Of a stretch of 38,792 nt of DNA, positions 37,751-38,792 are shown piece by piece. Where the stretch lies: assembly GCA_028694995.1 (NCBI GenBank), contig JAQVJU010000002.1, positions 131,503 to 170,294 on the forward strand, read 5' to 3'. The notes under the pieces are model-generated. The model was given only the letters and a program-made list of their open reading frames with translations. It was not told where the DNA came from and did no database searches. Source of the stretch: Minisyncoccota bacterium. Lineage in GTDB: Bacteria > Patescibacteriota > Minisyncoccia > UBA6257. The translations under genes were made by a program, and so were the position numbers. Each line of letters starts with the position of its first letter. The stretch's first letter is position 1.

Positions 37751-37813
37751 AATAAAAATGGATTAATATTCTTTTTTTAATTCTAATAAACAGTATAGCA
37801 ATTCTTGAAAATA

Positions 37814-37848
37814 AAAACAACTTTGTCAAATATAAACAAAGTTGTTTT
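37814..37848 (-). terminator. Terminator downstream of 16S rRNA
   Basis: AAAACAACTTTG-TTTATATTTGA-CAAAGTTGTTTT, 12-bp perfect stem with A/T tails; could act in both directions. Confidence 0.8.
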
Positions 37849-37983
37849 ATCTATTCAATCCTTTCTGGTTATCCCAAGCATGATTAATCTCTTTTTAAAG
37901 ATGACAAGATTAACATCTCTCTTTGTTAAAACAAAGAGACCGACACTTAAAGCTTTGATTTTAAAAACCAAAGCAAATTCTAT

Positions 37984-38792
37984 AAAAGAAAAGTTTCACC
38001 ACCAGCTTCCGCTAGCAGTGCCTTGTTATGACTTAGCCCCTGTCACCGAACCTACCCTAGTTCCTGTAAACAGGATTTTTAGGTATTCCCGGCTTCCTTG
38101 ACTTGACAGGCGGTGAGTACAGAGTTCGAGAACGTATTCACCGTGGTGTGGCTGACCCACGATTACTAGCGATTCCAACTTCATGAGGTCGAGTTTCAGA
38201 CCTCAATCCGGACTGGGAGATTGTTTGATGCGATTAGCTCCGCCTTACGGCTTGGCAACGCATTGTCAATCCCATTGTAACATGAGTGTCGCCCAGGGCA
38301 TCAAAGGGCCATGCTGATTTGACGTCATCCCCTCCTTCCTCCCTCCTCAAAAAGCACTTCTCAATATTTTAAAAATGAAATGCTCTTTGAGGAGGGCGGT
38401 TTTTTGTGACACATATAACACAAAACAGGGGTTGCGCTCGTTTCCCCACTGAAGGGCACAACTCGCGTCACGAGCTGACGGCCATATGCTTCTATTATTA
38501 CTAATAGTATGGACTATACCATCACCCTTGGAAATTAAAATTTCAAAGGGGACCAGCGTCTTATTATTTACTAAAAATAAATAATAAAATCTTTAATATT
38601 TTTTAAAGATTAAGTCTCTACGGGGTCAATGATGACTTCCCACGGTATTACCCATTTTAAATTTTAAAAATTAGGGTTTCACCGTTATGAGCTGGTTTTT
38701 TCATTCTAAATTACTTTAGAATGGGTCGACTTTTCAACCATGCAGCACCTGTCCTGATGTCCTTGCAGAAGGCTCAACTTTCATTAAGCTTT
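37984..38792 (-). rRNA. rrs: 16S rRNA gene, 3' part (5' part beyond window), interrupted by intron 38483..38735
   Basis: Conserved blocks on minus strand: GACAGGTGCTGCATGG, AAACGAGCGCAACCCC, GACGTCAAATCAGCATGGCCC, GGAATCGCTAGTAATCG, CACGGTGAATACGTTC, TAACAAGG, h45 with GGAA loop. 3' end placed by alignment to E. coli. Confidence 0.95.
38483..38735 (-). mobile_element. ORF-less group I intron in 16S rRNA (near E. coli position 1060)
   Basis: Core ACGGTGAAACCC ... GGTAATACCGTGGGAA ... CCCCGTAGAGACTTAAT ... GGTGATGGTATAGTCC. Exons join to GCATGGTT|GCCGTCAGC; P1 possible between exon GGUU and intron GACC with U.G at the 5' splice site; intron ends in G. Confidence 0.9.

Follow-up and report, generated by a model that had tools for sequence, protein, structure and literature searches.

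Inherited loss of the anti-Shine-Dalgarno sequence across an order of Paceibacteria (Parcubacteria), with canonical Shine-Dalgarno motifs retained by a minority of genes

The 16S rRNA of a Minisyncoccota bacterium (genome G000) ends in a tail that lacks CCUCC, the anti-Shine-Dalgarno (anti-SD) sequence, which is among the most conserved stretches in bacterial rRNA. The same loss is found in its relatives, the leaders of its genes are A-rich, and no re-specified motif complementary to the new tail was detected. We regard this as an inherited anti-SD loss in Paceibacteria (Parcubacteria) that extends across the order, with translation most likely starting without Shine-Dalgarno (SD) pairing (probability of about 0.85). 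A small set of genes nevertheless carries canonical SD motifs that are conserved between species.

The 3' end of the 16S rRNA

The G000 assembly comprises 503,762 bases in 6 contigs and is rated 100% complete. The analyzed stretch of 38,792 nucleotides (here, the window) ends exactly where contig C6 ends, which cuts the 16S gene so that its 5' half is absent; the remaining part covers positions 993-1533 of the RF00177 model. The relevant features, all on the minus strand, are as follows.

37984..38792, minus strand: 16S rRNA gene, 3' part (Rfam RF00177, 317.5 bits, E = 2e-97)
37997..38020, minus strand: helix 45, intact, with a GGAA loop, CACTGCTAGC-GGAA-GCTGGTGGTG (sequence and RF00177 alignment)
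37980..37996, minus strand: 16S 3' tail AAACUUUUCUUUUAUAG, without anti-SD (sequence and RF00177 alignment)
38491..38745, minus strand: group I intron within the 16S gene (Rfam RF00028, E = 6e-8; 37.9 bits, under the gathering score of 50)
37808..37850, minus strand: intrinsic terminator-like hairpin closing the 16S transcript (sequence and fold)

Directly 3' of helix 45, the minus strand reads AAACTTTTCTTTTATAG at 37996-37980. Its first 13 nucleotides (37996-37984) are AAACUUUUCUUUU, where GAUCACCUCCUUA is expected, and the RF00177 alignment sets the consensus tail GAUcACCUCCUUu against them. The place of CCUCC (1535-1539 in the E. coli register) is occupied by UUUCU at 37991-37987. The first-pass annotation, made from the window sequence, had described an intact helix 45 followed by a tail without CCUCC, and both the sequence and the RF00177 alignment bear this out. 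It had also reported that no CCTCC lies on the rRNA strand up to the terminator near 37814 and had seen no evident intron that hides an anti-SD exon. Rechecking the strand again gave no CCTCC before the terminator; the 16S does carry an intron, at 38491-38745, with nothing pointing to one near the 3' end. No other CCUCC site within the 16S is common to the members of the order; extra matches in loci L044 and L046 were left out, as both sequences appear to be in the wrong orientation. With respect to a functional 16S, the intact helix 45 is accompanied by a gene for KsgA, the dimethylase of the helix-45 loop (contig C4, 89491-90249; score above the curated cutoff). Because KsgA is encoded, helix 45 of G000 is presumably modified as usual.

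A single 16S locus was found in G000, whose assembly is incomplete at the rRNA genes. No 23S gene follows the terminator-like hairpin in the window, and the 3' end of the 23S and the 5S lie at the end of another contig, C1 (L018, 2464-3767). Thus, the 16S gene appears to be unlinked to the 23S on its 3' side and to be transcribed alone. The copy of the 16S intron in the sister species G002 (L059, 1860-2760) encodes an AGRFDGDGS motif within a frame that, by eye, is apparently that of a LAGLIDADG-like homing endonuclease; this frame is missing from the G000 intron. In the helix-39 region, an extension hairpin, CCCTCCTCAAA...TTTGAGGAGGG (window 38334-38404, minus strand), far exceeds the consensus length.

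Distribution of the loss

Alignment of the 16S 3' ends of relatives, which the first-pass annotation had proposed as a check, supports a lineage-wide loss. G002, a metagenome-assembled genome (MAG) of the same genus, has an identical tail and shares 99.6% identity over a 494-nucleotide 16S fragment, and among the 25 relatives from the order whose 16S 3' end could be read, 24 are without CCUCC. The sole exception, on contig C31 of G022 (L051), is one of 10 16S matches in its bin and has a different helix 45; it probably represents contamination. A second CCUCC-bearing 16S, L274 (G210, contig C6), was likewise observed in a bin that, as in the case of L051, also holds CCUCC-less or further 16S copies. 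Both copies are probably contaminants, genomes with two ribosome types being a possible alternative.

Of the 17 genomes sampled from the rest of the class, 15 lack CCUCC, while G114 and G310 retain it. The phylum sample comprised 290 genomes; a general helix-45 pattern was present in 173, and it continues as GAYCACCTCC in 116. For many of the genomes missing this strict pattern, tails were read individually. Outside the class, CCUCC is present in 27 of the 31 tails so read (e.g., GAUUACCUCC and GAACACCUCC), and the other 4 are one base off. CCUCC is kept by two families in the class and by nearly all of the remaining phylum. Single-base variants were seen in other Patescibacteria families: CUUCC in G047 (f52), CCGCC in G085 (f81), UCUCC in G238 (f135), and CCUCA in G318 (f156). 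We also searched the genomes of GTDB 220 for a helix-45 pattern that does not admit CCUCC. Among the matches listed, the records that carry a name belong almost entirely to lineages of Parcubacteria, including Nomura-, Taylor-, Zambryski-, Wolfe-, Harrison-, Lipton-, Jorgensen-, Staskawicz-, Gribaldo-, and Sungbacteria; two non-Parcubacteria names among them sit on 2- to 4-kb contigs and look mis-binned. The clade-wide loss of the anti-SD within Paceibacteria/Parcubacteria, across the order and most of the class, is thus real.

The tails that replace CCUCC vary from family to family. The most frequent tail in the class is GAAUAAUUCAAUU (36 of 119 named loci). Tails in the order are often of the AAUUAAACU kind, those of the G000 family are AAACUUUUCUUU-like, and related tails occur in G007 and G009. 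The tails of G128 (GAUCACUUCUU), G301 (GAUCACUACAU), and G082 look like intermediates, and the class has intermediate tails such as CACUUCUU and CACUACAU. A possible route of motif decay is suggested by the series CCUCC, then CACUUCUU, then AUUCAAUU and AUUAAACUU.

Two possible correlates of the loss were rejected. In CCUCC-bearing genomes, a hairpin pairs CCUCC with GGGAG or AAGGA in the trailer (mean of -5.4 kcal/mol versus -2.3 kcal/mol for shuffled trailers). Maintenance of this hairpin by covariation after the loss was dropped as an idea, given that CCUCC-less genomes show -0.99 kcal/mol versus -0.86 kcal/mol for shuffled trailers. Likewise, a correlation with loss of bS21 is not tenable, because bS21 is encoded in 33 of 40 relatives and in 161 of 193 genomes of the phylum sample. 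S1-like proteins are short and divergent in the G000 family.

Canonical SD motifs retained by a minority of genes

Starts were picked mechanically, by a first-ATG rule, so that all motif and leader counts given here are approximate. The most enriched hexamers upstream of the starts in G000 are canonical SD sequences (AGGAGG, 14 versus 0.8 expected; AAGGAG, 19 versus 2.1), their spacing peaks at 6 to 10 nucleotides, and about 5% of the genes have a perfect AAAGGAGG at canonical spacing. Counted as the union of four hexamers at a spacer of 4 to 11 against a positional background, SD-led starts number 25 of 490 in G000 (background, 8.5) and 24 of 483 in G002 (7.0). An excess is also present in other genomes of the order that lack the anti-SD, namely, G030 (13 of 318; background, 1.8), G034 (9 of 197; 1.0), and G012 (6 of 132; 1.0). 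No SD excess was found in G168, from another part of the class (4 of 199; background, 2.2). The reversed-pattern count in G000 (35 versus 5) includes matches inside genes and is not used as proof.

The motifs are conserved between G000 and G002. Conditioned on G000, identity is 89/96 (93%) in the SD hexamer versus 213/276 (77%) in the flanks (P = 4.6e-4); conditioned on G002, it is 75/78 (96%) versus 180/224 (80%) (P = 4.6e-4), although these two tests, having genes in common, are not independent of each other. With the rules slightly altered, the counts were 81/84 in the hexamer versus 234/288 in the flanks. Taken from these alignments, the retained SD motifs are apparently under purifying selection. 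Hence, the suggestion of the first-pass annotation that SD:anti-SD pairing has been lost describes the rRNA correctly, the anti-SD being gone, but is incomplete with regard to the mRNAs, a minority of which still carry conserved, canonical SD motifs.

The SD-led genes are short (median of 114 versus 257 amino acids), ordinary in GC content, and clustered. For 19 of the 27, another SD-led gene is no more than 3 kb away, whereas 6.6 would be expected and the highest count among 500 draws was 16. Many of their products look secreted or membrane bound by eye, and most of those scanned have no confident family match. Two SD-led genes were tested, one for an alternative sigma factor and the other for a PlsC-like acyltransferase; within the family, close matches to them occur only in G000 and G002. 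Because they are short and clustered, mostly lack a family match, and in the two tested cases have restricted matches, SD-led genes look like mostly accessory island genes. Islands of short, mostly unannotated, often secreted-looking AAAGGAGG-led genes were observed in otherwise ordinary chromosome of G000 at C6:2302-10778, C4:116315-117552, and C4:137252-138762. A phage origin was considered and rejected; of 8 proteins, PHROG matches were obtained only for a thymidylate synthase and for a sigma factor, and the latter had no relative in a scan of viral contigs.

What maintains or reads the SD motifs

The excess and conservation of SD motifs fit poorly with a ribosome wholly unable to read them. 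The likeliest explanation is that the minority consists of mobile or island genes whose SD would be kept by selection outside the SD pairing of their own ribosome, for example, selection in donor hosts that use SD, or through some reader distinct from the anti-SD. The more specific proposal, that Parcubacteria lacking the anti-SD translate these mostly accessory-island genes via canonical SD motifs read by a factor other than the tail, we hold to be unlikely, if worth keeping in view; candidate readers would be a protein, another rRNA site, or a specialized ribosome. A trans-acting RNA with CCUCCUUU was dropped as a candidate; by eye, the intergenic matches seemed to consist of SD sites in reverse complement, of coding sequence, or of terminators.

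SD recognition might instead be merely weakened, with the tail UUUUCUUUU still reading AAAGGAGG through G·U wobble. The substitutions at 1535-1539 are indeed C to U, and SD leaders pair with the G000 tail at -8.0 kcal/mol versus -5.8 kcal/mol for shuffled leaders. However, U pairs better with A than with G, yet the conserved letters are GG. Moreover, the tails of G030 (UUUUAUUU) and G034 (UUUAAUU) are devoid of C here, which would restrict them largely to G·U and A:U pairs, yet the SD excess is equally strong in both genomes. We therefore consider wobble reading improbable.

Less probable again is a second, CCUCC-bearing 16S copy missed by assembly. The conserved motif is a perfect complement of the canonical ACCUCCUUU, and in G000 a contig end truncates the 16S while the 23S is fragmentary, which would leave room for such a copy. 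Against it, genomes of the order with an assembled 16S mostly yield a single CCUCC-less gene, and the order's one CCUCC-bearing 16S lies in the multicopy G022 bin described above. In G030 (3 contigs, 99% complete), the CCUCC-less gene is the only 16S match, and the SD excess persists. A hidden second rrn operon across so many genomes is unlikely.

In one genome of the order without the anti-SD, G030, the gene immediately preceding that for bS21 is SD-led and, by eye, of the HIT family (C3:55628-56212), an arrangement that resembles the SD at rpsU in Flavobacteriales.

Leaders and the inferred mode of initiation

The first-pass annotation had left open whether pairing was lost or re-specified, the new tail then pairing with AAAGAAAAG-like leaders. 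Loss at the level of the lineage is well supported by the relatives, the class, and the GTDB scan, whereas re-specification finds no counterpart in either enrichment or conservation. Upstream of the 490 mechanically called starts, AAAGAAAAG-type k-mers occur at the shuffled level; AGAAAA at spacer 4 to 11 even shows a deficit in G000 (8 observed versus a background of 13.2). Tail-complementary k-mers are not conserved above the flanks between G000 and G002, and non-SD leaders have no extra affinity for their own tail (-2.91 kcal/mol versus -2.87 kcal/mol when shuffled). Although the tail can reach -11.0 kcal/mol with AAAAGAAAAGUU and the leaders are rich in A, the tails vary between families, and a re-specified pairing between the U-rich tail and such leaders is largely refuted and very improbable. 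An assembly error or a hidden downstream anti-SD exon is hardly credible: the 16S does contain a group I intron, but two MAGs share the tail, 24 relatives show the same loss, no CCTCC precedes the terminator, and helix 45 and the rest of the 16S are conserved.

The G000 leaders are A-rich and depleted in G, and 60% of the genes have A at position -3. Folding is weak around the starts (-1.6 kcal/mol, versus about -3.5 kcal/mol elsewhere). AUG is rare on both sides of the start codon; just upstream, it occurs at 0.45 per 100 nucleotides versus 1.4 to 1.8 in distal or coding sequence, a depletion that the first-ATG rule partly builds in (for in-frame AUG only). From these properties we infer an SD-independent mechanism in which the ribosome would bind A-rich, unstructured, AUG-poor leaders without SD pairing, and accessibility together with nearby A residues (A at -3) would determine which AUG is used, much as proposed for Bacteroidia.

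Relation to known systems

Loss of CCUCC is of a known kind. The first-pass annotation's "only a few exceptions" understates the record, as 128 taxa without the anti-SD, phylogenetically clustered, have been described (PMC6107228), and 112 organisms have been placed in category iv, SD-scarce without CCUCC (PMC10783764). The latter include Campbellbacteria, Wolfebacteria, Peribacter, SR1, Flavobacteriia such as Chryseobacterium, Carsonella, and Hodgkinia (PMC10783764); the main text of PMC6107228 has no mention of Parcubacteria. G000 resembles category iv organisms in that CCUCC is absent from the unstructured tail after helix 45, the variant is common to close relatives, and few mRNAs pair with the tail, non-SD leaders staying at the shuffled level. 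It does not resemble category iii, in which sequences complementary to the variant tail are overrepresented in leaders (PMC10783764). What distinguishes the present case from category iv is a map of the loss that spans an order and most of a class, a gradation of intermediate tails, and the SD motifs conserved in a minority of genes. The taxa of PMC6107228 likewise show clustered loss, but organisms without the anti-SD generally also lack SD motifs (PMC6107228). Therefore, the conserved SD minority is the newer part of our findings. Published surveys do include a few such genomes; a literature search for Shine-Dalgarno with Parcubacteria, Patescibacteria, or Candidate Phyla Radiation, with subscription papers outside its scope, found no paper describing a class-level loss in Parcubacteria.

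In Bacteroidia, A-3, A-6, and AUG avoidance have been reported (PMC8710568). The G000 leaders are similar, being A-rich and weakly structured with A at -3 and scarce AUG near starts, albeit starts chosen mechanically. Flavobacterium johnsoniae keeps CCUCC, hidden in a pocket of bS21/bS18/bS6 (PMC8710568, PMC9976891); in G000, by contrast, CCUCC is absent rather than sequestered, and bS21 is still encoded. Flavobacteriales retain a few genes of the rpsU type with a strong SD in an SD-independent lineage (PMC9976891), as does the order studied here, where, however, there is no anti-SD to read the SD and the SD genes are mainly accessory.

With CCUCC gone from most of this very large candidate class, SD-based start prediction, expression design, and initiation models do not apply to it. 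SD motifs apparently under selection in genomes unable to pair with them offer a sharp test between a reader other than the anti-SD and island genes that keep the signal of a foreign host. If the former is true, these organisms would exhibit Shine-Dalgarno function without an anti-Shine-Dalgarno.
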